Source: Natronomonas aquatica (GTDB lineage: Archaea; Halobacteriota; Halobacteria; Halobacteriales; Haloarculaceae). From it: a DNA stretch of 36,621 bases. Below the pieces are notes generated by a model. The model worked only from the letters and a program-made list of their open reading frames with translations, did no database searches and had not been told where the DNA came from. Shown one piece after another: positions 6,292 to 36,558 of this stretch. A program made the translations under genes and the position numbers. The DNA is taken from NCBI RefSeq assembly GCF_024449025.1, contig NZ_JAHLKM010000023.1:1-36621 (forward strand), read 5' to 3'. The stretch's first letter is position 1. Each line of letters starts with the position of its first letter.

Positions 6292-7212
6292 CTACTCGAG
6301 ATACGCCAGCGCGTCCTCGACCGCGTCGGCGATATCGGTCCGTGCTTTCCCGCCGAGTTCCACGAGCGGCGGCCGGACAGTCGCGTGATCGATCATCCCG
6401 CGGACCTGCAGGGCCACCTTGGCTCCCGGGGCAAACCCGTGATCCAGACAGGCCCCGAAGACCGGCGAGAGGACGTGTCGCTGGATCGCTCTGGCCCGAC
6501 CGAGGTCGCCGGCTTCGAGGGCGTCACACAGCGTCCGGAACGCTTTCGGGAAGACCCCGGCGAGCGCGTTCATCCCGCCGTTCGATCCCATCACCCACGC
6601 GCCGACGAAGTGATCGTCGTACCCCTGGAAGACGCGGAACGACGACGGCGTCTCTCCGATGAACCGTTCGACGGCGCTGAAATCGCCGCTTGTGTCCTTG
6701 ATCCCGTGGATGGCGTCGTGGGGCGCGAGTTCCGTGACCGTCTCGAGAGCGATCGGCCCGCCGGTACAGGCGGGGATGTTGTACAGATAGATCGGCAGCT
6801 CGCTTCCGTCGGCGACCCGCTGGTAAAACAGCCGGTTGCCGGCCGGATCGTTCGCCGCGTGATAGTACGGCGAGGGGACCAACGCCGCGTCGGCGCCGAC
6901 CGCCGCCGCGTCCTCGATGAACTCGCGGACGTCCCCGGCCGTCGTCGCGCCGGCCCCGGCGACGACCGGGACCCGCCCGTCGGCCGCCTCGACGGTCGTC
7001 TCGATGACCGCCCGCCGTTCGGCGACGGTGAGGCTCGCAAACTCCCCCGTCGTTCCACAGGGAACGAGGCCGTCGACGCCGCGGTCGATCGTCCACTCGG
7101 CGAGCGCCGAGAGCGCGTCGTGATCGACCGTCTCGTCGGCGTCGAACGGGGTCACGAGCGTCGGTAGCGAGGCGACCGGAGGTAGATCGATATCCGTCGC
7201 GGGATCGGACAT
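6292..7212 (-). CDS. DapA-family aldolase, probably 2-keto-3-deoxy sugar acid aldolase
   Basis: A 306-residue TIM-barrel enzyme with the class I aldolase features GTTGE (residues 53-57), Y144 and Schiff-base lysine K172 (GIKDTSGD). True dihydrodipicolinate synthases have an Arg shortly after the catalytic Tyr (YNVPxRT) to hold the substrate carboxylate; here the stretch is YNIPACTGG, closer to sugar-acid aldolases. I therefore infer a KDG/KDPG-type or N-acetylneuraminate-lyase-like reaction over lysine synthesis. ATG 7212 is preferred, although the frame is open 21 codons further, because MSDPATDIDL leads into the conserved barrel. It is convergent with the NRDE gene. Confidence 0.82.
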   Translation of the reverse strand: MSDPATDIDLPPVASLPTLVTPFDADETVDHDALSALAEWTIDRGVDGLVPCGTTGEFASLTVAERRAVIETTVEAADGRVPVVAGAGATTAGDVREFIEDAAAVGADAALVPSPYYHAANDPAGNRLFYQRVADGSELPIYLYNIPACTGGPIALETVTELAPHDAIHGIKDTSGDFSAVERFIGETPSSFRVFQGYDDHFVGAWVMGSNGGMNALAGVFPKAFRTLCDALEAGDLGRARAIQRHVLSPVFGACLDHGFAPGAKVALQVRGMIDHATVRPPLVELGGKARTDIADAVEDALAYLE

Positions 7213-7280
7213 ACTGACGGGTTCGATTCTCGGGTGATAGTCGCTTCGGTTCGTCCCTTCGCAGTCGGGAAACAAGCAAT

Positions 7281-7290
7281 AATTTAAAAG
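7281..7290 (+). promoter_or_regulatory. TATA box of the winged-helix gene at 7314
   Basis: The element aatttaaaag lies about 25-30 bases before ATG 7314, a typical leaderless haloarchaeal promoter. It is also just upstream of the divergent aldolase gene. Confidence 0.6.
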
Positions 7291-7313
7291 GATCGGCGGC
7301 CGAGTAAGAACCG

Positions 7314-7670
7314 ATGAGTACCGCCGCCGAAGCCGACCTCTCGGAAATAGAGCGCGAAGGGCTGGAACTGATACGGAACACCGGTGGCATCCACCAGAGC
7401 GACTTCTGGAAGGAACTTGACATCGACTCGCGGAAGGGCAGTCGAGTCATCGACAAACTCGAGGAGCTAGAGCTGATCGAGCGGACCGAGACGGTCTATG
7501 AGGGCCACAACACCTACCACATCACGCCCGTCCTCGATCCCAAGGACCTGGACTTTTCGCTCCTGATGGCCGGCGACATGCTCTCGCCGTTCGTCGGCGA
7601 CGAGGAGATCGATCCGCAGGACGACGCCTTCTCCCAGTGGGTCATGAACCTCGCGTACGAGGAGTACTGA
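7314..7670 (+). CDS. Winged-helix DNA-binding protein
   Basis: A 118-residue protein whose first 70 residues form a MarR/Lrp-like winged helix: SEIEREGLELI, then the helix-turn-helix HQSDFWKELDIDSRKGSRVIDKL, then the wing ERTETVYEGHNTYHI. The C-terminal 45 residues are acidic and probably helical. This resembles the small Lrp-like haloarchaeal regulators with a short C-terminal extension. It is divergent from the aldolase gene, which it may regulate, but nothing in the sequence proves the target. Confidence 0.8.
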   Translation: MSTAAEADLSEIEREGLELIRNTGGIHQSDFWKELDIDSRKGSRVIDKLEELELIERTETVYEGHNTYHITPVLDPKDLDFSLLMAGDMLSPFVGDEEIDPQDDAFSQWVMNLAYEEY

Positions 7671-9138: not shown

Positions 9139-9244
9139 GTGAATCGCGTAAGCTCTAGGTAGATGCTGCCATCGTCCCTGCTGGCTGGATATTCAACGTC
9201 GAATGACAATAATTAAATCACTACACTGTCATAGGCTATGTATA

Positions 9245-10498
9245 GTGGATCTGGTCACTACACGCACCATTACAGCGACGCTCACCAACGACCGTGAGGG
9301 TGTTGTCTGTGATCTTGATTCACTCGCCCGTTCAGGGAGTAAAATCTGGAACGTTGCTCGGTGGACCATCAGCCGTATTTGGGACGAAACCGGCGAGATT
9401 CCGGCCGAAGGACCACTCAAGTCATACATGAAGAACCAAGCGTGCTGGAAAGATTTGAACGCCCAATCAAGTCAGGCAATCGTCGAAGAATTGGCTGGCG
9501 CTTTCCAGTCGTGGTTCGAACAAGACGACCCAGACGCTAACCCGCCGGGCTACCGGAAGGACGGAGACGAACGACCGCGTAGCACTGTCACGTTCAAAGA
9601 AGATGGCTTCAAACTCGACCCCAACCACCAGCAGGTCCGACTGTCGAAAGGCAAGAACCTGAAAGACAGGTGGGCTGATTTTATCCTCTGTGAGTATGAA
9701 ATAGGCCCAGACGCTGATCTGACCGACGTTGAAGAGGTCCAGCAGATCCGTGCTGTCTGGAACGAACAGCAGTGGGAACTGCATTTCGTCTGTAAGGTTG
9801 CCATCGATGCAGCTGACCGATCTGGTGAGAAGACAGCAGGTGTCGATCTCGGGATCTGCAACACGGCGGCTGTCTCAGTTGGTGAGGAGACACTGCTGTA
9901 TCCGGGCAATGCGTTGAAAGAAGACGCCCACTACTTCCGGCAGGTTGAATACGACACGGAAGGCGAGAACGGGTCCAGCAACCATGCTGAGTGGGCTCGA
10001 GACAAGAAATCCCGGAGGCAAGATCACTTCCTGCACGCCCTGTCGAAAAATATTGTTGAGCAGTGTGCAGACCGTGCTGTTGGAACGATTGCAGTCGGTC
10101 ACCCGAAGAACATCCGCGGGGATGAAGACTGGGGCAGGCACGGAAACAAGCGCCTCCATGACTGGGCGTTCGAAACCCTGCTCAGTCACATTGAGTACAA
10201 GGCAGAAGAGCGCGGAATTGACGTAGAGCGGGTTGATGAATACGAGTTGGCTACGTCGATAACGTGTTGTGAGTGTGGCATGAAAGCCGATTCAAACCGT
10301 GTTGAGCGGGGATTGTACGTCTGCGAAGAGTGTGGCTTGGTTGCGAATAGCGACTGTAATGCGGCTGAAAACATGCGAACGACGGTAACTCCGAGTCCTT
10401 CCGAGGATAGGAGTAACGGCTGTCTGGCCCAGCCATCGGTGCGACTGTTCGATAAACAGACGGGGAAAGTCGCCCCACAAGAGCAGGTACGACCGTAG
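9245..10498 (+). CDS. tnpB: Orphan TnpB, IS1341-type RNA-guided nuclease
   Basis: TnpB of the IS200/IS605 superfamily without a TnpA partner. Visible parts, counted from GTG 9245 (417 residues): N-terminal recognition lobe, RuvC-I Asp at 201 (AGVDLGICN), RuvC-II region around 283-290, a zinc ribbon (CxC at 342-344, CxxC at 360-363) and RuvC-III Asp at 370 (NSDCNAAENM). The RuvC-II site reads IAVGHPKNI and lacks the Glu of canonical TnpB, so cleavage activity is uncertain. An in-frame ATG at 9203 exists, but a TATA-like aattaaa at 9211-9217 favours the GTG. A right-end hairpin follows the gene. TnpB proteins use a 3'-end-derived omega RNA to guide DNA cleavage at the donor site. Confidence 0.85.
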   Translation: MDLVTTRTITATLTNDREGVVCDLDSLARSGSKIWNVARWTISRIWDETGEIPAEGPLKSYMKNQACWKDLNAQSSQAIVEELAGAFQSWFEQDDPDANPPGYRKDGDERPRSTVTFKEDGFKLDPNHQQVRLSKGKNLKDRWADFILCEYEIGPDADLTDVEEVQQIRAVWNEQQWELHFVCKVAIDAADRSGEKTAGVDLGICNTAAVSVGEETLLYPGNALKEDAHYFRQVEYDTEGENGSSNHAEWARDKKSRRQDHFLHALSKNIVEQCADRAVGTIAVGHPKNIRGDEDWGRHGNKRLHDWAFETLLSHIEYKAEERGIDVERVDEYELATSITCCECGMKADSNRVERGLYVCEECGLVANSDCNAAENMRTTVTPSPSEDRSNGCLAQPSVRLFDKQTGKVAPQEQVRP

Positions 10499-10538
10499 AC
10501 CAGCAAATATCCCAACGCTTGCAGTGCGGTTCGGGAAG

Positions 10539-10558
10539 CCGCGTCCTTCAGGACGCGG
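10539..10558 (+). ncRNA. Right-end hairpin of the TnpB element; probable omega RNA scaffold
   Basis: A perfect 8-bp stem, ccgcgtcc / ggacgcgg, with loop ttca lies 41 bases after the tnpB stop. This is the typical right end of haloarchaeal IS1341-type elements. In known TnpB systems the omega RNA covers the gene's 3' end and the right end, with the guide read from the flank. The guide here would begin soon after 10558; its exact limit cannot be set by eye. Confidence 0.6.
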
Positions 10559-10919
10559 AGGAGGTCACCAACCCGCTGGCCGTTTGCCCACAAGATTTGT
10601 ATACTACCCTGTCGCAAATCCCGCCGGAGCCGGGCGGGGAACGTTCACATGCCCCGTTCAGAGGGACCGACTCGTGCTGTTGCCACCGTCCCGGCTTCAG
10701 ATCCGTTGGCGAAGCCGAAGGACACGAAACCGATTCGCCGTCGTTTCGCTGGCATCCCTCCTCGGCTTTCCGCTCGCTCGTTCGGAAGGCGGGTGTCGGT
10801 GATTCCGTCGGGATAGCGGACGCGTCGTCCACAGAGAACTCAATCGTGCGCGTCGGCGCCGCGACAGACGGTATTAGCGTGAGACCGTCCCGATAGGGTA
10901 GGGTCGGCGGCCGTCGCGA
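10559..10919. other. Convergent intergenic region without a supported gene
   Basis: GC-rich sequence between the 3' ends of tnpB and the dehydrogenase gene. Short frames on both strands are Ser/Arg/Pro-rich and lack domain signals or a promoter. I see only the probable omega RNA guide flank at its left edge. Confidence 0.5.
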
Positions 10920-25124: not shown

Positions 25125-26183
25125 TCACAGGTCTGCAGCGACTCGCTCAAGCACCGCCATCACGGCCTCAACTTCCGCTCGGGTGAGCTCGGGCTCACCG
25201 TCGGTCTCAGCCGCGTGCTGCGTGGAGTCGACTATGTCACTCGACACATCCTGCTGACTGGCCTCAGCAGCATCATCACCATCAGCAACAGTATCGAGCC
25301 GTTGTTGGCCTGCTGCGTCAGCTGCATTCCCCGTACCGCTGGGACTCGCAGTCGACTCAGTCCGCTCATCGTGCGTCGGCCGGCCGCCACCACCGCGGAA
25401 CGCGTCCAGCGGGAAAGAGTACGCATTGGCCCTTTTCTCGCGGTGAAATGTCGTGCGACGAGACACGTCGAGCACGTCCATAATCGCCTGCCGGTCAACC
25501 CCGCGATCCAATGCTTGGCGGACCAATTCATCTTCGACCCGCTGGACCAACGTCTGCGAGTTCGACGGGATATGCCCGCGAGCAGAGTGCTCGATCTGCC
25601 CGGTCAGGCCCCACTTCCCGGTCTCGACATCCTGGTCGACGATTTGACGGTCACGGGACTGGACAATATTATCCAACCCCATCAGCGTCGCCAGCCGCTC
25701 TCGGACCGCTGTCACCGACAAATCCGCGGTCAGGGCACGCGCGACCTCACCCGTCGTCGCAGGCCCCTTGTCCGCGAGATACTGTAGAATCTCGATGTCC
25801 TGCGACAGCAACACGCCGAGGTCCTCATCGCTCAACGTCACCGGTGCATCCTCATGGGTCGCCTGCTGATGGATCCAGTTGTGACACGACCGACACAGCG
25901 TCGTGAGGTTCTCTGGTGCATCCCCATCGATGCCGTCCGGATTCCGCTCGATATGATGGACGTGCAGGGTCGCTAATCCGCCACGCTTCGGGCCCTTGCG
26001 TCCACATACCCGGCAGCGATACTTGTCGCGCTTCAGCACGTCAGCCCGCACGGCCGCATCAAGCGACTCGGATGTTCGAGGACTCCAGGTATCTTCCGCA
26101 CTGGACTCGACATCCGTGTTCCCGGCCGTCTGTTGCTCGCTCGATTCGTCACCGTCAATTCCCGAAGGGTTTGTCTGCGCCAT
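25125..26183 (-). CDS. HNH endonuclease with winged-helix domain, HRAMP-associated
   Basis: A 352-residue protein from ATG 26183 (GTG 26192 is possible). Residues 50-107 are a complete HNH nuclease: RDKYRCRVCGRK, then LHVHHIERNPDGID, then NLTTLCRSCHNWIHQ. Zinc Cys pairs are at 57/60 and 97/100, with the catalytic His in HVHH at 76-77. A winged-helix region follows at about 120-180 (EILQYLADKGPATTGEVARA), then a second helix-turn-helix-like stretch (DRQAIMDVLDVSRRTTFHRE) and an acidic disordered tail. It is last in the minus-strand HRAMP operon, 127 bases after the exonuclease. HRAMP loci carry varied nucleases proposed to replace the missing CRISPR effector nuclease; this is one candidate. 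Confidence 0.8.
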   Translation of the reverse strand: MAQTNPSGIDGDESSEQQTAGNTDVESSAEDTWSPRTSESLDAAVRADVLKRDKYRCRVCGRKGPKRGGLATLHVHHIERNPDGIDGDAPENLTTLCRSCHNWIHQQATHEDAPVTLSDEDLGVLLSQDIEILQYLADKGPATTGEVARALTADLSVTAVRERLATLMGLDNIVQSRDRQIVDQDVETGKWGLTGQIEHSARGHIPSNSQTLVQRVEDELVRQALDRGVDRQAIMDVLDVSRRTTFHREKRANAYSFPLDAFRGGGGRPTHDERTESTASPSGTGNAADAAGQQRLDTVADGDDAAEASQQDVSSDIVDSTQHAAETDGEPELTRAEVEAVMAVLERVAADL

Positions 26184-26310
26184 GGGTTTCACGCTCTGGA
26201 TTGGTGGTCGCTGCTGTGTCCGCGAACCGCAGGTGCGTCGTGGTGTATCGCTTCAATCAGCCGTTCACCGCGGCCGCTACTCCGACATCAAGGGGCTGAC
26301 TCTACCGGTG
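26184..26310 (-). other. 127-base gap inside the HRAMP operon
   Basis: This is the only clear non-coding gap between genes of the operon. It contains a gattgaagc 9-mer (read on the minus strand, 26258-26250), identical to the 3' end of common haloarchaeal CRISPR repeats, but no other repeat match. A match of this length is fairly likely by chance in a window of this size. Confidence 0.3.
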
Positions 26311-26979
26311 TTATCCGTACTCCGTGGGCGTTAGCGATTTCACGTCAAATTCCGATTTCGCGCAGTACTGCTCTGCAAGCCGGCCAAGCGCCCGTGTCCG
26401 CAGCACGTCCGCGACATTGTGCGTAACCAGGTCGGCCAGCCGGCCTTCCTCAAACGCGTCGATGGCCTCGGCGCTCTCCGTAAACGGGTCGATCATGTTG
26501 AGATCCCCATCACAGAGCGTCCCATATACTGCGGCGAGACTCGACTGCTCATCGCCGTCCACGGTCGTGTTGAACCGGCGAGAAATGACCGGCATCACGT
26601 CCGCGAACGGCACGTCCCGGAACGGCCACTCGACGCCTGTCGCCACCAACCGTGTCCGCAGGAACGGTAAATCAAACCCATCGCGCCACCGCTCACCGTT
26701 GTACGCAACGAGTAACACGTCCTCGCCACACACTCGCTCAGCGACAAACTCACCGACCGCTCGCAGCAGCTCGGATTCCGCTTCGTGAAGCGAGACGACA
26801 ACTCGCTCCCCGACTCGCTCCCGCACCTCATCCTCAATTTCACCAGTGCCCACTGCAGCACTACCAGCGTGTACGAACACGCGGCACCCCAACGGCACTG
26901 CAAACCCGACGGCCGTCACTACATCATTAACCTCGAACCCTGTCGTCTCAATATCGAACGCAACCTGCTCCAACACCAT
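26311..26979 (-). CDS. DnaQ/YprB-like 3'-5' exonuclease, HRAMP-associated
   Basis: A 222-residue RNase H-fold exonuclease. Motif I is AFDIETTGF near the N-terminus, motif II is YNGERWRDGFDLPFLRTR and motif III is THNVADVLRT, with the final Asp four residues after His. The pattern is nearest to the YprB/RNase_H_2 or PolB-exonuclease-like groups. ATG 26979 overlaps the TGA of the upstream RAMP gene by one base (TGATG), so translation is coupled; GTG 26982 is a less likely start. Together with the HNH gene it gives the locus two nucleases of different type, as expected of HRAMP. It may trim or degrade DNA or RNA; the substrate is not known. Confidence 0.82.
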   Translation of the reverse strand: MVLEQVAFDIETTGFEVNDVVTAVGFAVPLGCRVFVHAGSAAVGTGEIEDEVRERVGERVVVSLHEAESELLRAVGEFVAERVCGEDVLLVAYNGERWRDGFDLPFLRTRLVATGVEWPFRDVPFADVMPVISRRFNTTVDGDEQSSLAAVYGTLCDGDLNMIDPFTESAEAIDAFEEGRLADLVTHNVADVLRTRALGRLAEQYCAKSEFDVKSLTPTEYG

Positions 26980-27974
26980 CACACCTCACCCCCTGCAAAC
27001 TCGGGACTCCGTTCAGGAACACGATCATCGCTCACCGGCCGAACCCTGATCTCACCGAACCCGAACCGCGAATGCGTCCCGACTCGGAGCACCCCGTTCT
27101 TCGCTGTCTCAACCGGGCGCGATCCGTCGTATCCGACGATCTGCCCGTGATCAATCGTCGCCAACTCATACACCTCGTCATCATCAACCAGGCGCTCCGT
27201 CCGTCGCCGTAACCCGGCACGGCTCGCCGCACTCGCCCTGCAGTCACCATGACCGTCAGCCGGAGATGCTCGTGGACGTGAGGTGTCCCACCACCACGGC
27301 ACCGACTGTTCATCCGCATTCGGGAATTCACTTGCCACCACGAACGGTGACACTAACTCAAGGACGTGGTCGTCTGCTGCCGTCACTCGGTCATATGCCA
27401 GTTCATCGAGCTCGATAACCTGCGAATCTACGAGCGACAGTCGACCGAACCCGTAGTTCCGCGCCCCACCGGCCTGCAGCCGATCCAGCGTCTCGTCCGC
27501 CACCGGTAGCAGCGACTCCCCGTGCGTACCCGACATCGTGTGCAGGTAACACTGGACGAACCATCGAACCGAGCGCTTCGAAGTCTGCATCTCTGGCGGC
27601 CGACCAAACCACGTCACCGGATCGAACGCGAGTCGCCCACCGTGGCTCTGCACCGGATGCGCGTTCTGCGCGTCCCGTGGCCACGACGACTTCAACCAGC
27701 GCTGCGCCGCATCCCGCAGCAGGAACAGGTCATCATACGACTCGACTGGCGGTAACGACACTCCGACCTTCCCTAAGGATGACTGGGAATACCACGCCGG
27801 CGGCGTCCCGTACGTCTTCGGCAGGAACACACCGTGACTGACGCACAACGCTCGCCGCATCCGCTCGTCGACGCGCTGCGCTAACGCCTGGTACAACGCG
27901 TTCCCCGTCACGTAGTACGGGTGGCCCAGGTACGCCGTCTCCAGCTCGAACAGAACCTGCTGGATCCGCGTCAC
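26979..27974 (-). CDS. Cas5-like RAMP protein with two glycine-rich loops (HRAMP)
   Basis: A 331-residue protein. Two RAMP signatures are visible: GGARNYGFGRLSLV at about residues 169-182 and GTHSRFGFGEIRV at about 299-311. These Gly-rich loops contact crRNA in Cas5, Cas6 and Cas7 proteins, so the protein may have two RRM-like domains. The N-terminus (HPYYVTGNALYQALAQ) fits the start of a RAMP fold. The start is GTG 27974, whose bases overlap the TGA of the upstream small gene (GTGA); GTG 27983 is an alternative. I call it Cas5-like because HRAMP is known to pair a Cas5 and a Cas7 homolog and the neighbour is clearly Cas7-like. A Cas6-like processing role is a real alternative. Confidence 0.75.
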   Translation of the reverse strand: MTRIQQVLFELETAYLGHPYYVTGNALYQALAQRVDERMRRALCVSHGVFLPKTYGTPPAWYSQSSLGKVGVSLPPVESYDDLFLLRDAAQRWLKSSWPRDAQNAHPVQSHGGRLAFDPVTWFGRPPEMQTSKRSVRWFVQCYLHTMSGTHGESLLPVADETLDRLQAGGARNYGFGRLSLVDSQVIELDELAYDRVTAADDHVLELVSPFVVASEFPNADEQSVPWWWDTSRPRASPADGHGDCRASAASRAGLRRRTERLVDDDEVYELATIDHGQIVGYDGSRPVETAKNGVLRVGTHSRFGFGEIRVRPVSDDRVPERSPEFAGGEV

Positions 27975-28375
27975 GCTAACCACCCCTCATTTCCACTCCA
28001 GATGCCGAGAGATTCCAGGGAACAAAGCGCCGTGGGCTGTAGCCCAGACACACCCTGTTTCCAGTGCCACCAGTTGTACAGCGCCGCTACCGCCTCAACA
28101 CCGAGGCCGATCGGGACAGATTGTAGCCACCAGTCCCGCAGCGGCATCGCACCTCGACGCAGTGATGCCGCCCCTCTATCTCGACGACCACACACCCTGT
28201 TTCCAGTGTCTTCACGGAGATACTCCCACCACGAGGCACACACCCCGTTTCCACTGTCTTCACCACAACGACCACACACCCCGTTTCCAGTGCCACTAGC
28301 AGGAGACACGTCGACACCGTCGAATTCGGGCATCAATCCAGACCCGCAATGATCGGATCCGAAGCGCCCCATCAT
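27971..28375 (-). CDS. 134-residue Cys/Trp-rich protein carrying DNA repeats
   Basis: This frame is supported by its joints. ATG 28375 shares a base with the upstream stop (TGATG), and its TGA overlaps the next GTG start (GTGA), exactly as at the other junctions of the operon. The protein (134 residues) has three [TS]GN[GR]VC units in its first half (TGNGVCGRCGE, SGNGVCASWWE, TGNRVCGRR), possibly zinc-binding, and a Trp-rich second half with a hydrophobic stretch (VPIGLGVEAVAALYNWW). It is much less acidic than its neighbours. The three units come from 22-bp DNA repeats, and a fourth copy lies out of phase, so the region may serve mainly as RNA or DNA. No family is recognised. Confidence 0.5.
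   Translation of the reverse strand: MMGRFGSDHCGSGLMPEFDGVDVSPASGTGNGVCGRCGEDSGNGVCASWWEYLREDTGNRVCGRRDRGAASLRRGAMPLRDWWLQSVPIGLGVEAVAALYNWWHWKQGVSGLQPTALCSLESLGIWSGNEGWLA
28033..28046 (-). repeat. Short GC hairpin next to repeat copy D
   Basis: TGGGC / GCCCA with the 4-base loop TGTA. It ends two bases before the fourth 22-bp repeat at 28049. Confidence 0.35.
28049..28296 (-). repeat. Four irregularly spaced ~22-bp repeats inside the HRAMP operon
   Basis: Copies on the minus strand are A 28296-28275, B 28260-28239, C 28212-28191 and D 28070-28049. The shared core is CACTGGAAACRGGGTGTG, with B differing by one base (CAGTGG). A and D match at 21 of 22 positions. Start-to-start distances are 36, 48 and 142. 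Flanks are also shared in pairs: GTGG before A and D, AAGA before B and C. A, B and C are in one codon phase, D in another, so selection on peptide cannot explain D. A weak fifth copy may lie near 27980-28000, over the next start codon. This is not a canonical CRISPR, since the spacers are too uneven. Confidence 0.8.
28141..28171 (-). ncRNA. Strong hairpin between repeats C and D
   Basis: gcggcatc (28141-28148) pairs perfectly with gatgccgc (28164-28171). One G:U-type pair and one more G:C can extend the stem to 10 bp around an 11-base loop. It sits in the long interval between repeat copies C and D, within the HRAMP transcript, and suggests a folded RNA segment. Confidence 0.45.
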
Positions 28376-29241
28376 CACGACCACCCCCGCTCAACATCAG
28401 CAGCATCAGCATTACGCACACCACGCCACGCAACGAACTCCTCGATGTACTGCAGCGCCGTCGACCACGACCGCAGCCGGCGAAGCTGCGCATCCAACAC
28501 CATCAACGCCCGCGACCCGTCAGTGTCGAACGGTTGGTCCGACAGGCGTGACCAGCCATCCGCAAACGACCGCGCCGGCTCCGGCCCGAGCCTCGCCGCC
28601 GGCCGATCACCCGGATCACTCGTCACAGCCAACGTCACCAACGGCGACCACAACACCGTCCGATGCGGCGACACCACGTCACTTTCCAACGCCGCCTCAG
28701 GACCCACATCAGCAGCCGCCGACTCACCAGGCCAGACCGCCAAGAACAACTCGTCGAAGCTCCGTCCAGCACGGTACTCCGACAACAACGCCGCCGCTAA
28801 CAACACGTGGTACTTCAACGACGTGTACGGATAGTACACTGACTCGTTGAACGCTGCCGCCACATCGCTCGTCAGCCACGCCGCGTGGAGCCGAGATGCG
28901 TCACCAGAGACAACCAAGTCTCGGAACCCACCATCCGCTGCCGCTTCGATCCGGCCAGATTCAGTCGCGGACTCACCCGTCAGCAACGACAACCGATACG
29001 GAGACGAGTGGTTCGCCACCGTTTGGTCCGGCTCACCTGAGGGCCGACTCAGCAACGCCGCATCACCATCCGCACCCAACGGGACGGCCTCATTCACGCG
29101 CACACCGTGGTACTCGTCAGCTGCCGCACTATGCCGCCGACCATTCATTTTGTGTACATCGTGGCGATACACCGCCACCATCGGATCAGCAACCGTCTCA
29201 CCGACAGCATCAGCATCCACCAAGTCACGAGCGTCGCCCAT
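28375..29241 (-). CDS. Conserved uncharacterised HRAMP-type protein
   Basis: A 288-residue protein with no recognised domain. The middle is helical (NESVYYPYTSLKYHVLLAAA, LLSEYRAGRSFDELF), and the end has conserved-looking aromatic helices (LRRLRSWSTALQYIEEFVAW). Its ATG overlaps the Cas7-like gene's TGA (ATGA), and the next gene starts on its stop (TGATG), so it is embedded in the coupled operon. The published HRAMP description includes one uncharacterised conserved protein beside Cas5 and Cas7; by position and size this is the best candidate. A large-subunit-like (Cas8-type) role is a guess without sequence support. Confidence 0.65.
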   Translation of the reverse strand: MGDARDLVDADAVGETVADPMVAVYRHDVHKMNGRRHSAAADEYHGVRVNEAVPLGADGDAALLSRPSGEPDQTVANHSSPYRLSLLTGESATESGRIEAAADGGFRDLVVSGDASRLHAAWLTSDVAAAFNESVYYPYTSLKYHVLLAAALLSEYRAGRSFDELFLAVWPGESAAADVGPEAALESDVVSPHRTVLWSPLVTLAVTSDPGDRPAARLGPEPARSFADGWSRLSDQPFDTDGSRALMVLDAQLRRLRSWSTALQYIEEFVAWRGVRNADAADVERGWS

Positions 29242-30236
29242 CAGAGCTCACCTCGCTCCCCCTCGTCGACACTATCCTGACGATCAATCGCCGTGCCCAG
29301 CTCGCCGTCACTATCGCTCACACGCGCCTGCAACGCCCGCGTGAACTCTTCGCGGTAGACTTCACGCCACTGGTCGTCTTTCTCCTGCATCGCTGTCGTC
29401 GCGTTCTGCGCCCGGTTGTACACGCGGCGGATCTCCTGGTCGGTGTACAGCGGATTCACCACACCTACATCTGCAATCCCTGCACCGAAATTCCGCGCAC
29501 CACCGAGCTGGAACTCGAACGTATCACTCTTCGAATTGAGCAACGATACCGCTTCTAGCAACAACCCGACGAACTCCGGTTTCAGCGTTCGCAGTGTCAA
29601 CAGCCACGTTCCCTCGACGTTCCCGACTACGTCACGGGTGGCGTGCCGAAGCGGTTCGCCACCATCCTCGTCATTCCGTGAACGTACCTGCGTGTGCAGC
29701 TGCCGGTAATGCGCCTCGGCCTCACCACGCAGCACGTCAACCTGCTGTCGCACCGGCGAGAACCGAATCGGCCGACGCAACAACTCGCCCGGTTTGTCAC
29801 CGAATCCACCGAACAACTCGTAGACAACACAGCCAGCGTCGGTATCGCCTGCCTCAACGCAGGCTCCTTTCTCGTGGTACCCCTGGCTCAGGTCACGATC
29901 ATACACATCTGTACGCATATAGTCCGCATTCGGTTCACCTGGATGGCACGCCGACATCCCAGCAATCTGCAACACGCGTTCACAACCGTGCCGTAACCAA
30001 CCCGACAGCGTGAACGGCGAAATCTGCCCGCGAATCTGATTCATTGCATCGTCCGCCTCGTACCGATCCGCAGACGCGTGATGCCGATCAGTCACGATGC
30101 CGTCACCCGGTGCAAGCAGATCCACCCCAAGGTCGAGGTAGAGATCCGGGAACGTCGATTCATCAACAGGTGGAAGCTCGAACTCACCGTCGAGGTTCCC
30201 CGCCGAGAATGACGGGGACTCCGATCCCCCCGTCAT
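29241..30236 (-). CDS. Cas7-like RAMP protein (HRAMP, Csf2/Csm3-like)
   Basis: A 331-residue protein. Residues 68-89 (QIRGQISPFTLSGWLRHGCE) resemble the Csm3/Csf2 block PxIPGSSLKGxLR that holds the crRNA backbone, and GGARNFGAG at 245-253 is the Gly-rich RAMP loop. DLYLDLGVDLLAPGDG near residue 35 fits the first RRM strand with the initial substrate loop. Length matches Cas7 of type III and IV systems (about 300-350). ATG 30236 is chosen because it overlaps the upstream TGA (ATGA); GTG 30260 is also in frame. It should form the helical backbone on a guide RNA if the complex behaves like other class 1 effectors. The catalytic Asp of Csm3 could not be placed. Confidence 0.78.
   Translation of the reverse strand: MTGGSESPSFSAGNLDGEFELPPVDESTFPDLYLDLGVDLLAPGDGIVTDRHHASADRYEADDAMNQIRGQISPFTLSGWLRHGCERVLQIAGMSACHPGEPNADYMRTDVYDRDLSQGYHEKGACVEAGDTDAGCVVYELFGGFGDKPGELLRRPIRFSPVRQQVDVLRGEAEAHYRQLHTQVRSRNDEDGGEPLRHATRDVVGNVEGTWLLTLRTLKPEFVGLLLEAVSLLNSKSDTFEFQLGGARNFGAGIADVGVVNPLYTDQEIRRVYNRAQNATTAMQEKDDQWREVYREEFTRALQARVSDSDGELGTAIDRQDSVDEGERGEL
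30198..30219 (-). repeat. GC hairpin at the 5' end of the Cas7-like gene
   Basis: tccccg / cgggga, 10-base loop, lies within the first 15 codons (S5-D16). It resembles the hairpin at 25089 and TnpB right ends. It may be a sequence coincidence or a domesticated insertion remnant. Confidence 0.25.
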
Positions 30237-30742
30237 TGCGAACCACCACTGTCGCACCACGACGACGGCTGCTCACGGCCAGATGACTCTTCCACCACAA
30301 CCGAATGAGTCACATCAACTCCGGCATCCTCACCATCGGCACCCGAGTCCGGATCAGCATCATCCAGCGTGTATGCCTCTATCGTGTTTACCGGACTGAG
30401 GGCAACCAGCTCAGGGTCAAGCAATACCGGCCACGTCGACTGCGTCGCGGTGTCCGACACAGTACCAACACGCCCCCGCACAACCAGCTCACGGAGCGAC
30501 TGATCCCACGAGCGATTATACTCATCTCCGTGACCACGGCAAAACGTGTCCTCAACCATAAATTTCGGACCAGACTCCGACCGAAAAGCGGACACAGTAA
30601 TGCGTCCACCTTCACGGATTCGAGAGTCACAGAATTGACAGATAACGGCCCCTTCCGCCGAATCGGATAGTTTTAGTTTGTTTATGTCTTCAATAAGCTC
30701 GCTGTCGATACTTTCTTGATTTGGTGGTGTTGATTTCGTCAT
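30233..30742 (-). CDS. CxxC protein, first gene of the HRAMP operon (possible Csf1-like)
   Basis: A 169-residue protein. Residues about 30-75 hold a putative zinc finger, CQFCDSRIREGG, then CRGHGDEY some 30 residues later. The C-terminal 40 residues are acidic and disordered. The order zinc-finger protein, Cas7, Cas5-type RAMP parallels csf1-csf2-csf3 of type IV CRISPR-Cas, where Csf1 is a small zinc-finger protein. That is positional analogy only. Its start codon follows directly on a leader with strong secondary structure. It ends in an ATGA overlap with the Cas7-like gene. Confidence 0.6.
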   Translation of the reverse strand: MTKSTPPNQESIDSELIEDINKLKLSDSAEGAVICQFCDSRIREGGRITVSAFRSESGPKFMVEDTFCRGHGDEYNRSWDQSLRELVVRGRVGTVSDTATQSTWPVLLDPELVALSPVNTIEAYTLDDADPDSGADGEDAGVDVTHSVVVEESSGREQPSSWCDSGGSQ

Positions 30743-30826
30743 GGGTTCGAGATTGGTTATTCTGAACCCAGCCTGGGTGCTACCACACCCGGGCGTTTCC
30801 TGATTAACGCCCTATGGCTGGGCTTC
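30743..30826 (-). ncRNA. Structured leader of the HRAMP operon: three-way junction with alternative stem
   Basis: On the minus strand the outer stem GAAgCCCAGCC (30826-30816) pairs with GGCTGGGTTC (30773-30764), 10 pairs with one bulged G. It encloses hairpin 1, GGGCGTT/AACGCCC (30812-30806 with 30797-30791, 8-base loop), and hairpin 2, GGGTG/CACCC (30790-30786 with 30779-30775, 6-base loop), placed back to back. GGGTTC of the closing strand (30769-30764) can instead pair with GAACCC (30748-30743), which touches the ATG at 30742. The fold starts where the TATA box predicts transcription to start. It looks like a switching leader or a free small RNA. Confidence 0.6.
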
Positions 30827-30830
30827 CACC

Positions 30831-30902
30831 CATTAGTCATACCGCTAATGGCATAAACCTTTGGACGTTCGACTAATGGATACCGTCCCAGCACTCATTA
30901 GT
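30831..30902. promoter_or_regulatory. Four CATTAGT operator half-sites and HRAMP promoter
   Basis: The motif occurs at 30831-30837 (cattagt), 30844-30850 (gctaatg, one base different), 30872-30878 (actaatg) and 30896-30902 (cattagt), as two inverted pairs with spacers of 6 and 17 bases. A minus-strand TATA-like AGGTTTATGC (30860-30851) would start the HRAMP transcript near 30830, so the first pair lies over the promoter. The second pair precedes the plus-strand regulator gene at 30926. The winged-helix protein encoded there is the natural candidate to bind. Confidence 0.6.
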
Positions 30903-30925
30903 GAACCGGGATCAATACCGATGAT

Positions 30926-31171
30926 ATGGGCGACCGGAAGCGTGACGAGAACAGTGGTCGGTTTAGCGAGGAATATCCTCGGGAAGATTTTCTCCGGGTC
31001 CTTGAGGAACTAGGTGCAGCCGGGACGACCGACGTTGCTGAACATGTGGGCTGCGACCGAAGAACTGCTTATCTGAAGCTCCAAAGCCTCGAAGAGGAAG
31101 GCGATGTCGAGAGTCGAAAGGTCGGAAACGCTCTGCTGTGGGAATTAATAGACGAATCTCAGGGAGTATGA
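30926..31171 (+). CDS. Small winged-helix regulator between HRAMP and BREX
   Basis: An 81-residue protein, essentially one winged helix: REDFLRVLEELGAAGTTDVA, then the recognition helix CDRRTAYLKLQSLEEEGDVE, then the wing SRKVGNALLWEL. It is divergent from the HRAMP operon, with operator-like CATTAGT sites between, and its stop lies one base from the convergent brxL stop. I infer an autoregulator that also controls HRAMP. Control of BREX is less likely because that operon is transcribed from outside the window. Confidence 0.78.
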   Translation: MGDRKRDENSGRFSEEYPREDFLRVLEELGAAGTTDVAEHVGCDRRTAYLKLQSLEEEGDVESRKVGNALLWELIDESQGV

Positions 31172-31172
31172 A

Positions 31173-33200
31173 TCACTCCAGTTCAATCGCCTTACTAGCC
31201 GCATCAAGGGGATTAGTGTAGAATACGAGTTGGAGCTGGTCAAGGAGTTCGTCGGGGATTTTCGGTAAGTCTTCTTTGTTCTTCGCAGGAAGGAGCACCG
31301 TTTTGGCTCCAGAATCCGCAGACAGTTGGAGTTTATCGATCAACGAACTCACGGAGACTAGCTCGCCCATCAAACTCATCGATCCCAGTACGACGGTCTG
31401 TGGCCGGACTGGTCGATCAAGAATGCCCGAAACAATACCGACGAGGAGCCCGACACTCGTTTCACCACCCTCATTCGCATCAGAGGGGTTCAGAACCTGG
31501 ACGTTGATGTCGTATTCATCCAGAGTCTCTTCACGACTGAGTTCCCGCATATTTGCCTGTAGATAGTCACAGGCGGTTTCAAACGACTCTTTCATCCGCT
31601 TTCCGGGCGTGCCCGAAATATTCGTCTTGCCCGATCCGGGGAGTGTCTGAGTCTCGATTCGGAAGGGAGCGTGGCGTCCTTCGCTCTCGCCTATTGTGTA
31701 GACCGTTCCCGCCTGCTGTGTTCCTGGGGGAATGAGTGACTCGTCTGCTTCTTCGGGTACTGAGACATAGATCTCCTCTTTCGTATCCAAGTCGAGGTAG
31801 GAGAATTCGACGGCACGATATTCCATACCGCCAATCCGCTTCAATTGTTCCTTGACTCGACGACGACCTTCCATGGCGAATTCGAGATACTCTCGGAGTT
31901 CTTCTTTCGTGTACACACCATGTGGATGAAGTAGCTTGAGTAGACCTGAGACAGTCTTACGTACGGCCTTTTCGTCTCGTTGGTTCAGGTGGTCACCAAA
32001 CGCGAACTCCTCGTTGATCGCGTCACCGTACGACTCCTTTCGGAGCTCCCGGACGAACTCAGCGAAGTAGTCGACGATGAATCCAAACTGGTCGCCAAAG
32101 AACTCGGACCGCATCTTCGGGACTTCCCACCCTGGAAGGTAGTAGTGGAATCGGTCGATGAGCGCGAGATCCTGCATATCCTCGGGGAACGGTTCAAAGA
32201 GGTGTGAACTCTTGAGAACGCCTTCAACGTCAAGGTCGATATTCCCGACATAGACCATCGAGGCTTGGGCGGTGAGCTCTTCAGTCCCACGAGAGAAGCT
32301 TCCGGACTCCATGTAGTCTTTGAGCATCTGGACGGCTTCCGAATCGCTGAACTGGAGTCCCCCGACCTCGTCGAACGCGACGACATCCCAGCGACCGACG
32401 AGTCCGATCCGTCCTGTATTCAGGTTCAAGAAGAGTTTCGCAACGGTGGTTTTACCGCCGGAGATGAGGATTGAATGGGGACTGATTTCGCGGTAGAGAT
32501 AGCTCTTTCCCGTCCCACGTGGTCCCAATTCGACGTAGTTGTAATTTGACTCGACGAGGGGTATACACCGAGCTAAGAAGAGGAATTTCTCGCGGTCGCT
32601 AAATGAAGAGGGGTCGTAGCCGACGGTCTGAAGGAGAAGGTCCATCCATTCGTCGCGCGTGAAATCGTTACGTCGATCTTTCAGTTGGTCAAGGTCAAGA
32701 TTCGATACCTGTATGGGTTTGAATGAGTCGATGCCGAAGAGGCTCTTTGGACTGTTCGCATTATCAGGGAGATATTCCAAGTCGATGATAGCCCAGACGC
32801 CACCACCGAGGAGCTTTGGATGCTTGCTGACGAGATGTTCGTTGATCTCGACATCGCTCAAACCGAGGTTGACAAACGAACCGATGTAGGCGTCCTGTTG
32901 TTCATCGAGCCTGACGGTGACCTTGTCAATGACGCGATAGCGTCCCCGCTCTCGAACCTCGCTCTTGACGAATTCGGCTTCGTCAGGACGAACGTAGTGC
33001 TTTGACAGAATCTCTTTGACCTTTTCGAGGCCCTCTTCCAGAGATTCCTCGTCATCAGTCGCACAGTACTGTCCGATCAGATATTCGAGAACGTAGGTAG
33101 GGACGTTTACCCCGGATTTGATGTCCTGAACAAGGTCTTTCCGGACGACGCGCCCGGAGAAGACATCCAGGGCTTTCCGATCTACGTCCTCAGTCGTCAT
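31173..33200 (-). CDS. brxL: BREX Lon-like protein BrxL
   Basis: A 675-residue AAA+ ATPase fused to a Lon-type protease-like domain. Walker A is GPRGTGKS at 226-233 and Walker B VVAFDEVGG at 273-281. The C-terminal 110 residues have the Lon fold (NEGGETSVGLLVGIVSG, then SLIDKLQLSADSGAKTVLLP) with Ser and Lys at the dyad positions. BrxL occurs in BREX types 1 and 4 and is needed for phage restriction in studied systems, where it acts on DNA. It follows pglZ by 121 bases. Length and all domains are complete. Confidence 0.9.
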   Translation of the reverse strand: MTTEDVDRKALDVFSGRVVRKDLVQDIKSGVNVPTYVLEYLIGQYCATDDEESLEEGLEKVKEILSKHYVRPDEAEFVKSEVRERGRYRVIDKVTVRLDEQQDAYIGSFVNLGLSDVEINEHLVSKHPKLLGGGVWAIIDLEYLPDNANSPKSLFGIDSFKPIQVSNLDLDQLKDRRNDFTRDEWMDLLLQTVGYDPSSFSDREKFLFLARCIPLVESNYNYVELGPRGTGKSYLYREISPHSILISGGKTTVAKLFLNLNTGRIGLVGRWDVVAFDEVGGLQFSDSEAVQMLKDYMESGSFSRGTEELTAQASMVYVGNIDLDVEGVLKSSHLFEPFPEDMQDLALIDRFHYYLPGWEVPKMRSEFFGDQFGFIVDYFAEFVRELRKESYGDAINEEFAFGDHLNQRDEKAVRKTVSGLLKLLHPHGVYTKEELREYLEFAMEGRRRVKEQLKRIGGMEYRAVEFSYLDLDTKEEIYVSVPEEADESLIPPGTQQAGTVYTIGESEGRHAPFRIETQTLPGSGKTNISGTPGKRMKESFETACDYLQANMRELSREETLDEYDINVQVLNPSDANEGGETSVGLLVGIVSGILDRPVRPQTVVLGSMSLMGELVSVSSLIDKLQLSADSGAKTVLLPAKNKEDLPKIPDELLDQLQLVFYTNPLDAASKAIELE

Positions 33201-33321
33201 TATATAACGGCAATGTTGCCGGGGGCATATTGGTGTCGGTCATCAGGAGTGAGAACTCAAGATAATGAATGAACCCTACTCGAATTCGACTACGACAGCC
33301 CGTTGTTGTAGCCGAGAGTAC

Positions 33322-35748
33322 TCACACGTCAAATCCCATATCGTCATCTCCGAAGAGTAAATCGAGGCTCACAGTCTGTCTCGTGATCGTCTCTCTGGTG
33401 TCAGTATCGACGACTTCGAATTGGACCATATCTTCACCCGAGATGGCTCCCTGTTTGAGCCGAACACGGGTGCTATTGTCGCCAGGGGAGATCTCCATCG
33501 TAACAGGATCTGCGACTGGCTCACCATCGATGGTTGCACGAACCTCTAATGTTGGTGCGGGGTCGAAGGCGACTTGCCCACTCTTGGCCTCAATCTCCAC
33601 GGTGAGTATGGAGTTTGTAATCGGATCGGGGATCGAGACATCGTAGCTGATCGAGGCGCTCTCTTCGATTTCGCCCGTGGTCACAGTGAGACACGGGACT
33701 AGGAGTTCTTGAAGCGAAATCCCACCGTGGAAGTAGCGCATATTCCCACCTCGTGACTTGAAGCACGCGACACTACGGGGGAATAGCAACTTGATCTCGG
33801 GGCCATCAATGCCGAGTTTCGACAGTGCCTCGTGATCGATCTCGACGAACTCATCAGTATCGACGAGTGGCGTTTCGCGGTCGGCAGCAGCGAACCGGCG
33901 TTTGACGACCGGAGCAAGGTCAGGAGCCTCGACTTTGTGATCATCATTCAGCCGGTCCGTATACAAGAACCCGTGATCGCTGGTGATCACGAAGCGAGTA
34001 TAGCCGGCCTGTTTGAGACGCTGGACAGTCCGTTCGACATCGTCGACGTGAGACGCAACCTGGCTGAATGCAGCATCGTCGTCAAGACTCTCGCCGAGTT
34101 TGTCTATCGTGCCGGAGTAGACGACACGCGGAACGGGGTCGGACTCGGTCAGTTCTTCCAGTGAAATGTCGCCAACCTCGTCCATATCGACGACCTCGAA
34201 GCCCGCAGCACTGAGTCGTTCGACGCGCTCGGCCTTTCCAGCCATTTCCTCACCACTGCTGGTGACGACGAGTTCGTCGTCGTCGAGTGAGAGTCCGAGT
34301 TCACCCGGAAGGTGTGCGGCCATACCGACCTCTGTGATCGAGGGCAGTGCAGCACTCACTGCGGAGAGATCCTGTTCGAAGTCGGTTCGGCGGCCAAGAT
34401 TCTCACGGATGGCTTCAGCAAGTTCGTAGCGGAGCCCGTCACAGATAATGATCGCCGTCCCGTCATCCACCTCAGCGAATTCCTCATAGAACGAGGTTTG
34501 TGGTGTTCCGAGTGTCGGATCGTCGCTCAGAATCTCTGCCAGAGGCCGGTTGACACCCTGAAGGAAGGCCATATAGTGGTTGGTGACCTGGCGTTTCACC
34601 GTAGCTTCCTTTGGGTACGGGAATGTGGCCTTCTGGGTCGCGTCGATGTAACGCCGATAGGCTGCATCAACCTGCCACCAGCCGTCATCGCTCGTGTACT
34701 GTCCCGCAAGCTGTCTCGAACCCATCGCTTTCGCGTCGTCGACATCGACGGTACCGATCTGACGAAGCGTCTCAACCGCCAAAGCAGGCACCGACCAATC
34801 AACGAGGTCCTCGTTGCTCCAGAAACTGTCCCGGCGTTTCGTGACTGTCCGATTAAGTTCCGCCGCGATCTCCGGAAGATCAGCATACGTTCCCTCAGCA
34901 AGTCGATCCATCACGAGCCGAATCAGGCCAGTATCGATTCCCCTGAACGCTGTGGCGTTCCATCGGGTTTGGTCGGATTCGATCACGGCCTCTGTGAGGT
35001 CGTAGTCGGATTCGATCTCCCGTGAATAGCGAGTGAAATCGGCGGGAGTGTACTGCTGCCAGTCGTCGCAAAACTCCGCCGCAGCTTGAGCATCGTCCGC
35101 AGCGAGATTGTCGTACTGGGCGGTCGGCGCACGACTCGTCACCTCACCGAAGAGGAGTTGAGTTGCCAGTTCTTTCGGGTCCAGTCCGGCATCGATGCCG
35201 TACTCCTCGCGGAGCTGTGCATCCCAGGCATCAGCCATCGCGTTATCTTCGATGTCTAAGCGATAGTCCTCGGGGGCAGCAAGATAGTCGCGTACCCACT
35301 CGTCGATTGCTGGGCCTACAGTCTCGAAGAGCACACAAAAGAACGCCAGACGCTGGTACTCGCGGTTCTGTCCCCAGTCCTCGTATGCGTCCGGAATTTC
35401 TTCGTCGTGCTCGACGAGGAACTGTGTTACCGGTGTGTCATCAATATCTTGACCGACGCGGTACTGGCGGCCGAGCGCGTGGACATCGCGGAACCACTCG
35501 GCGTCATTTCGGGACTCTGGGATGTAGAACAACCAGTTCTTCTCGTAGTCCGGATCCTCGTTTCGGAGACGGAGCTTTAGCTCGAAGTAACTGCCGTTGT
35601 AGCGAGCCAGTTTGACATCGTCGAGTTCAGCTTCGACCTCGTTGAGAACGCCCTTGTACTTCTCCTGGGCATCGTACCACACCCAGACTGGGTGTCGATC
35701 GAATTTTTGACGAAGTTCCGTGATAATGCTTTCCGCGAGATCACCCAT
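33322..35748 (-). CDS. pglZ: BREX alkaline-phosphatase-fold protein PglZ
   Basis: An 808-residue protein with the PglZ core: GTAIIICDGLRYELAEAIRE, containing the metal-binding Asp in CDGLRYE, and TRFVITSDHGFLYTDRL with the SDHGF metal motif. The region between contains AALPSITEVGMAAHLPG, the usual PglZ nucleophile-side block. The N-terminal 400 residues are helical, and a beta-rich C-terminal domain follows, as in BREX-1 PglZ. It starts 6 bases after the pglX stop. PglZ is the signature protein of BREX and Pgl systems. Confidence 0.92.
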   Translation of the reverse strand: MGDLAESIITELRQKFDRHPVWVWYDAQEKYKGVLNEVEAELDDVKLARYNGSYFELKLRLRNEDPDYEKNWLFYIPESRNDAEWFRDVHALGRQYRVGQDIDDTPVTQFLVEHDEEIPDAYEDWGQNREYQRLAFFCVLFETVGPAIDEWVRDYLAAPEDYRLDIEDNAMADAWDAQLREEYGIDAGLDPKELATQLLFGEVTSRAPTAQYDNLAADDAQAAAEFCDDWQQYTPADFTRYSREIESDYDLTEAVIESDQTRWNATAFRGIDTGLIRLVMDRLAEGTYADLPEIAAELNRTVTKRRDSFWSNEDLVDWSVPALAVETLRQIGTVDVDDAKAMGSRQLAGQYTSDDGWWQVDAAYRRYIDATQKATFPYPKEATVKRQVTNHYMAFLQGVNRPLAEILSDDPTLGTPQTSFYEEFAEVDDGTAIIICDGLRYELAEAIRENLGRRTDFEQDLSAVSAALPSITEVGMAAHLPGELGLSLDDDELVVTSSGEEMAGKAERVERLSAAGFEVVDMDEVGDISLEELTESDPVPRVVYSGTIDKLGESLDDDAAFSQVASHVDDVERTVQRLKQAGYTRFVITSDHGFLYTDRLNDDHKVEAPDLAPVVKRRFAAADRETPLVDTDEFVEIDHEALSKLGIDGPEIKLLFPRSVACFKSRGGNMRYFHGGISLQELLVPCLTVTTGEIEESASISYDVSIPDPITNSILTVEIEAKSGQVAFDPAPTLEVRATIDGEPVADPVTMEISPGDNSTRVRLKQGAISGEDMVQFEVVDTDTRETITRQTVSLDLLFGDDDMGFDV

Positions 35749-35754
35749 ATCGAA

Positions 35755-36558
35755 TTACCTCGAATAGCTCGATTTCAGCTTCGGAAGTCCAGTTTTGAGG
35801 ACTTCGTACTGGTCCCATTCTTTGATGTTCTCCCAGATTCCTTTCTCAACATCAACACTGACGCCATCATCGACCATCTCATCGATGGTCTCCCGGAACT
35901 CCTTGATGTCATCGAGATCGTCTTGGACTTTTTCTTTCCTCTTCAGAAGCTCCTTATCCGGATTGTCGCCACTGGTTTGTGCGTTGAGGGTTTCAAGCTC
36001 ATTTTCGAGTTCATCGATTCGTGGGTCGAGATACTGTCCTCGGAGTTTTGGGAGCGTGTTCTCATCTATTTCATGGTAATAGACGAAGCAACTGAATGCA
36101 CCGTTAGAACTTTCTAGTTGCCAATAAATCGGTGTTCTTTGCCCTCGGCGCTTGTATTCGTCGGTGTGGTGGTTTCGAAAGAATTGTTTCCTCATCCATT
36201 CGGAAGGCGAATTTCCTAAATTAGATCTGATCTGATCCAATACCGTAGCTGGTTCATCAAATAGAGATTCAATCGATTCTTGAACAAAATCACTAAACTC
36301 ATTTGAATAGGGGCATATTGAGAGTATTTCCTCTTTATCTGTCGAAATCCCGTCACTTGACCATCTACCGAAATACAACCCTAAAATATATGATAATAAA
36401 CGGCCTGCAATGTCTTCATATTCATCTGCAGTATAGAGATTGTGTCGTCTTCGCAGTTCCGCGATAAGATATGGCGAGATCTCCAACTGTTCTGCCAACT
36501 CTATAATTGAACTTGACTCACCGTTCTCAATACGGTCTGATATTTCGCCTGTGTTTAA
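35755..36558 (-). pseudogene. pglX: C-terminal fragment of BREX methyltransferase PglX
   Basis: The frame is open for 267 residues from just after stops at 36559-36564 (TAG, TGA) to TAA 35755. It encodes only the end of PglX: EISDRIENGESSSIIELAEQ, a helix with LLSYILGLYFGRW, the conserved block QRTPIYWQLESSNGAFSCFV, YYHEIDENTLPKLRGQYL, and a coiled coil. Full PglX is about 1,100-1,200 residues, so the methyltransferase domain is missing from this frame. No ATG begins it; TTG 36498 is the only near-start. The upstream bases belong to another frame. The gene appears interrupted, probably by an insertion. Confidence 0.75.

Follow-up and report, generated by a model that had tools for sequence, protein, structure and literature searches.

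In purine riboswitches such as add, the stem that closes a three-way junction, P1, serves as the switching helix, and its 3' strand can pair with a downstream expression platform. In archaea, the fluoride riboswitch of Thermococcus kodakarensis was in 2021 the only natural riboswitch to have been determined experimentally, and in Haloferax volcanii the synthetic theophylline riboswitch E represses by masking of the AUG region (PMC8241225). Autoregulatory leaders of ribosomal proteins are also known, including a haloarchaeal S15 leader (PMC7247131). Haloarchaeal mRNAs are mostly leaderless (72% in Haloferax volcanii), and structured leaders have been called "not typical" (PMC4983044), which makes the family of structured leaders described here surprising. 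One of its members heads an operon of HRAMP, an array-less CRISPR derivative of haloarchaea without a known RNA (PMC8730458, PMC12669027).

The window that we analyzed is the whole stretch of 36,621 nucleotides from Natronomonas aquatica. On its minus strand lies an operon with the gene content of HRAMP, in which Cas5-like and Cas7-like genes, with Cmr3- and Csm3-like matches, are combined with genes for HNH and DEDDh proteins (Table 1). Upstream of its leader are a divergent gene for an HTH protein, a probable transcriptional regulator, and then the BREX genes brxL and pglZ. This BREX-HRAMP neighborhood is recurrent, with HRAMP and its leader adjoining brxL in the window (31173-36498) and in at least seven other genomes (the loci besides the window being L033, L034, L059, L061, L064, L066 and L074), and BrxL shows 92-100% protein identity between distant HRAMP loci. 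Elsewhere in the window, a TnpB/IS605-type gene (9203-10559, plus strand) has a 3'-overlapping sot0042 RNA (Rfam RF02656, 89.5 bits), and the integrase genes close by, at 12224, 15545 and 17072, point to a mobile island.

Table 1. Coordinates of the HRAMP operon, its leader and adjoining features in the window.
Feature	Position	Strand	Description
HNH protein	25125-26192	-	
DEDDh-type nuclease	26311-26982	-	
Cas5/Cmr3-like	26979-27983	-	
g4	27971-28384	-	
g3	28375-29241	-	
Cas7-like (Csm3-like)	29241-30260	-	
Rest of HRAMP-like operon after g1	25125-30260	-	Array-less CRISPR derivative type by gene content
g1, first gene	30233-30742	-	169 aa, Cys-rich core; codons 9-10 CAAGAA, within a 5' coding stretch that unrelated RNA-led genes also conserve
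Pre-start-codon element GAACCC	30743-30748	-	Complementary to 30769-30764
P1 3' strand GGCTGGGTT	30765-30773	-	Strand common to both switch helices
Hairpin 2 GGGTGT/GCACCC	30775-30790	-	5 Watson-Crick pairs and U-G, 30790-30785/30780-30775
Hairpin 1 GGGCGTT/AACGCCC	30791-30812	-	7 bp, 30812-30806/30797-30791
P1 5' strand AGCCCAGCC	30816-30824	-	Right after predicted transcription start at ~30829
TATA-like box TTTATG	30852-30857	-	BRE-like CCAAAGG just 5' of the box
Divergent HTH gene (TrmB/CasR-like)	30926-31171	+	81 aa; adjoins the RNA in many loci

The leader of the operon (30824-30765, minus strand) folds into a three-way junction composed of an outer stem, P1, and two hairpins. Its calculated folding energy (30750-30827) is -37.8 kcal/mol, against -22.1 ± 3.1 kcal/mol for dinucleotide shuffles (z = -5.04, 0/200). 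The original prediction had the sequence and coordinates of this fold right on the minus strand, and its outer stem stands, with 9 contiguous pairs including one G-U (30824-30816/30773-30765) in place of the ten it had counted. The hairpins of 7 and 5 bp that it had placed without a gap do abut directly, the shorter one gaining a U-G pair. The loop of hairpin 1 spans 30805-30798, with a purine-rich GAA adjoining the 3' strand. Also as foreseen, the closing strand of P1 can pair instead with the six bases abutting the ATG, and the resulting start-codon stem of 7 bp (30770-30764/30748-30742) takes in GAACCC and the A of the ATG. A second competing register, in which the 3' strand of hairpin 1 and the beginning of the P1 3' strand would lengthen hairpin 2, is compatible with 75-90% of copies but often broken by C-A, and we do not claim it.

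The TATA-like box of the window lies ~25-30 nt upstream of the start of P1, and the sequence makes a transcription start near 30829 plausible. An inverted repeat, CCATTAGTC ... GACTAATGG (30871-30879/30830-30838, minus strand), stands on both sides of the HRAMP promoter's BRE/TATA. Several relatives retain it, among them loci L044, L061, L064 and L065, and another CACTAATGAGTG lies close by in the window at ~30892-30903. This repeat is a probable operator of the divergent HTH protein.

A Cas5-like protein search gave a match in 107 of 392 genomes of the order Halobacteriales, and the g1 leaders were extracted from 60 fetched loci. The leaders keep the architecture, mostly with GAACCC-ATG at the end, and vary in sequence. 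When 40 HRAMP leaders were aligned by sequence only, 83 cells had changed on both sides of a pair compared with 28 in shuffles (0/500), and sliding the partners by 1-3 columns lowered pairing from 82% to at most 46%. Among 101 copies there were 240 such cells against 67 (0/500), with nine of nine P1 pairs covarying, and a replication in 55 further copies gave 140 against 34. Four of the five core pairs of hairpin 2 covary, and 99.8% of its cells are paired; GAA or AAA stands right before the 3' strand of hairpin 1 in 95/101 copies. Conserved unpaired bases are few and are chiefly purines in the hairpin 1 loop. The original prediction had listed covariation analysis among the checks on its fold and a lack of covariation in close relatives as refuting it; the covariation of P1 and the hairpins is clear in all three sets.

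The three helices together contain 150 G-U cells and 24 A-C cells (122 and 7 in P1 alone), and an excess of G-U of this size indicates selection at the level of the sense RNA rather than of the DNA. This wobble asymmetry argues against a DNA element, such as an inverted-repeat operator, a recombination site or a mobile-element end that stands before genes by chance, as do a register locked to the ATG and the TATA box and the keeping of pairing while the sequence diverges freely. Some genomes carry multiple copies, 19 being the highest count, copies are frequent on plasmids and islands, and the probable DNA operators CCATTAGTC/GACTAATGG stand on both sides of the TATA box; all this would suit such an element, but we consider it extremely improbable.

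The helix between the P1 3' strand and the bases before the ATG carries a signal that was not built in, since the alignment and search models included no alternative-stem pairs. In the 40 HRAMP leaders, this stem is 85.5% paired, against 82.4% when shuffled and at most 59% when slid, with 8 two-sided changes against 2.7. Other families pair different sequences in the same way, the P1 3' strand and its own pre-ATG element reading GGUUGUC/GACAACC, GGUUUGU/ACAAACC, GGUCUGU/ACAGACC and GGUCUUC/GAAGACC; GAACCC and ACGAAGC are likewise among the elements that change together with P1. A fixed protein motif was rejected as an account of GAACCC because the element changes with P1. For 18 non-ACCC classes of element, the native complementarity score is 14.5, against 10.6 ± 0.63 when elements are permuted between loci (0/5000), and for the 55 further copies it is 13.7 against 10.1 ± 0.62 (0/5000). 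In 53 of these 55 copies and in nearly all of the first set, the alternative helix reaches up to the ATG or stops one base short of it; it has fewer than 5 contiguous pairs in 31/156 copies (~20%). Counted over the same bases, it comprises 613 Watson-Crick and 15 wobble pairs and P1 comprises 365 Watson-Crick, 86 wobble and 35 unpaired, a comparison that favors the alternative helix because its best gapless run was chosen.

With energies calculated for 37 °C and 1 M NaCl rather than molar KCl, the mean cost of forcing the start-codon stem is 4.5 kcal/mol (range 0-13); in the window it is 0.8 kcal/mol, and the stem has a probability of 0.36 there. When the P1 5' strand is removed, the start-codon stem becomes far more probable, on average 0.84 instead of 0.12. 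P1 is predicted as the more stable helix in nearly all copies, so the start-codon stem would need a trigger or kinetics to form. In several copies, the alternative state retains the inner P1 and both hairpins, and the exchange is confined to the outer half of P1. The mean advantage of P1 would fit a leader in which the P1 junction is the sole functional fold, serving mRNA stability or 5'-end protection, and in which the pre-ATG complementarity is a by-product of start-codon sequence preference. Pre-ATG elements match only their own P1 3' strand, however (0/5000 in each of two sets), and we regard a leader of that kind as unlikely.

With two mutually exclusive conserved helices that share one strand, and a 5'-leader location that puts one of them at the initiation site, the RNA has the makeup of a two-state cis-regulatory leader and looks like an undescribed family of genetic switches. 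Judging from the sequence comparisons, the leader is probably a cis-acting two-state translational switch in which the outer P1 and the start-codon stem exchange. The original prediction had already read the competing stems as a switch, and this reading is supported by covariation in both of them and by lineages whose pre-ATG element and P1 3' strand have shifted jointly to unrelated sequences. Transcription would begin a few nucleotides before P1, and the nascent RNA would fold into a compact three-way junction of P1, hairpin 1 and hairpin 2. By branch migration, the P1 3' strand could then leave the 5' strand and pair with the near-repeat of the 5' strand directly before the AUG, while the inner P1 and the two hairpins stay folded. 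We infer the translational mode, polarity and trigger as follows: the start-codon stem, once formed, would block the initiation region (OFF), the outer P1 would leave the bases before the AUG free (ON), and the balance would be set by a signal, for which a protein or RNA-binding regulator is a likelier candidate than a small molecule. The small number of conserved unpaired bases fits a trigger of a protein or structural kind better than it fits a small-molecule pocket. Because the same pairing scheme occurs in very different sequences, the hypothesis is testable by simple mutation pairs.

In the 156 aligned copies, an ORF begins where the RNA ends, with ATG as its start codon (ACG in one copy), whatever protein comes next. 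The products led include HRAMP g1, SWIM zinc fingers, 48-52-aa Cys-rich microproteins, 91-aa and 173-aa proteins, putative Tat-signal proteins and tiny ORFs. On a Halococcus dombrowskii plasmid, each of four copies runs up to the annotated start of a CDS. In some genomes, copies lie in tandem on one strand, each heading its own gene. In the set of 101 copies, whose promoters are mostly unrelated, the AT fraction peaks at 0.92-0.95 at 26-27 nt upstream of the model start and ~33 nt upstream of P1, a promoter position that supports transcription of the RNA as a leader. Unrelated products have features of their first 10-13 codons in common (GAA at +28 to +30, CG at +36/+37), and residues 1-12 of g1 are predicted to be disordered; from this, the portable module seems to take in the start of the coding region, so that the leader and about ten first codons would form a unit attached to many small haloarchaeal genes. 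At loci L242, L218 and L253, the conserved N-terminal stretch is followed by a twin-arginine-like signal (RRQFLG, RRKFLG); it looks as though an existing exported-protein gene had acquired the leader module and its first codons. In genomes G378 and G336, with up to 19 copies per genome, the five copies inspected (loci L178-L182) head a 48-aa CxxC/CxxxHxxxC microprotein, which is frame-altered in L181. On a Natrarchaeobaculum sulfurireducens plasmid (L214, locus 7001-7408), the public record places the g1 that follows the RNA on the wrong strand, and small genes like this one look systematically mis-annotated.

The products led also bear on a sub-case of the switch that names its trigger, an autoregulatory leader in which the product of the next gene would bind the three-way junction and shift P1 against the start-codon stem. 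Many downstream products do carry Cys/His motifs (the invariant C35 of g1, the SWIM fingers, the CxxC microproteins), and the scarcity of conserved unpaired bases also speaks for it. Against this, several led products, as in the 91-aa and 173-aa families, are without such a motif, and no common fold was detected among the products; g1 itself has no match in Pfam or NCBIfam, and its structure model (mean pLDDT 68) has no convincing fold match in the PDB. We find autoregulation of this kind rather doubtful.

A covariance model built from the HRAMP leaders (R2) and applied with a per-genome cut-off of E <= 0.01 matched in 231 of the 392 Halobacteriales genomes (~59%), counts that depend on the models and on the genomes sampled. 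In a phylum sample of 295 genomes, 21 had matches at E <= 1e-4, and 21 of 21 belonged to this same order. Named carriers include Halobacterium salinarum DSM 3754, Haloquadratum walsbyi J07HQW1, Natrinema, Halorubrum, Halosimplex and Halorussus. Antisense matches to the model were weak and were considered mirror hits. An exact-pattern search of viral contigs found no RNA, and a search of phage records with the SWIM product gave no match. No RNA match was obtained in 23 of the 107 HRAMP genomes, and HRAMP loci of this sort may carry divergent versions of the leader. A structure-first scan, which also yields chance hits, found the same layout (GCUUCGU/ACGAAGC-AUG) in six group-2 HRAMP loci that the models had missed, and these six leaders have a common sequence and a similar downstream start. 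One of the six, locus L088, is a second HRAMP (group 2) of the window's own genome, with a divergent leader and the switch element CGAAGC. A third RNA copy in this genome (L142) has the element GACAGC and precedes a 190-aa ORF, so that a single genome contains three different switch sequences.

Both HRAMP groups have the RNA as their leader, the cas5-like gene is no more than 6 kb away from 50 of 69 strong copies, and RNA and HRAMP co-occur in genomes (p = 1e-6). Together with the lack of an array and of a known RNA in HRAMP (PMC8730458, PMC12669027), this would suit a guide-like or structural RNA that is processed from the leader and carried by the Cas7/Cas5-like complex, as crRNA is in type III complexes; an RNA bound by the RAMP complex had been the second reading of the original prediction. 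Yet an HRAMP cas5 homologue is present in 84 of the 231 RNA-bearing genomes and absent from the other 147, copies precede unrelated genes, and the strongest constraint is complementarity to the pre-ATG bases, which a guide does not need. Since most RNA-bearing genomes are without HRAMP and the RNA runs up to a start codon irrespective of the protein encoded, a RAMP-bound RNA is unneeded and unsupported as a general explanation, and we hold it to be very unlikely.

If the two-state switch is correct, an undescribed RNA family in ~59% of the sampled Halobacteriales genomes would be common to HRAMP and many uncharacterized small proteins, offering a direct handle on how HRAMP is turned on. Rfam 15 gave no match to the leader RNA even at E <= 1, and we found no description of the family in the open literature searched. 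Tentatively, it is possible that the leader represents the first natural RNA switch class in haloarchaea, sensing a small molecule, an ion or a regulator and controlling a dispersed regulon of Cys-rich small proteins together with HRAMP. For a riboswitch in the strict sense, the few conserved unpaired bases speak mildly against ligand binding, and there is no evident ligand pocket.

Like purine riboswitches, the leader is a three-way-junction platform with a switching closing stem P1. It falls outside their class, having no Rfam match (E <= 1) and few invariant junction bases; its platform, a near-copy of the P1 5' strand, lies directly at the AUG, where that of purine riboswitches is a masked SD, and unlike them it is restricted to Halobacteriales in the genomes searched. 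With the archaeal fluoride riboswitch, it shares a place in an archaeal 5' leader and presumed translational control, but the architecture of that riboswitch differs, and the leader is without an Rfam match. S15-type leaders offer another parallel, a covarying leader in Halobacteria that is presumably read by a protein; here, however, the genes led do not encode ribosomal proteins, and many products have one leader. CreA/CreR of Haloarcula and scaRNA resemble it as small structured RNAs beside a CRISPR-type system in haloarchaea, but no CRISPR repeat or spacer was seen, and the RNA also occurs where an HRAMP cas5 homologue is absent. Theophylline riboswitch E is synthetic and SD-dependent, whereas the natural leader has no evident SD; its likeness lies in masking the AUG region, as the start-codon stem would, and it indicates that such control is workable in haloarchaea.
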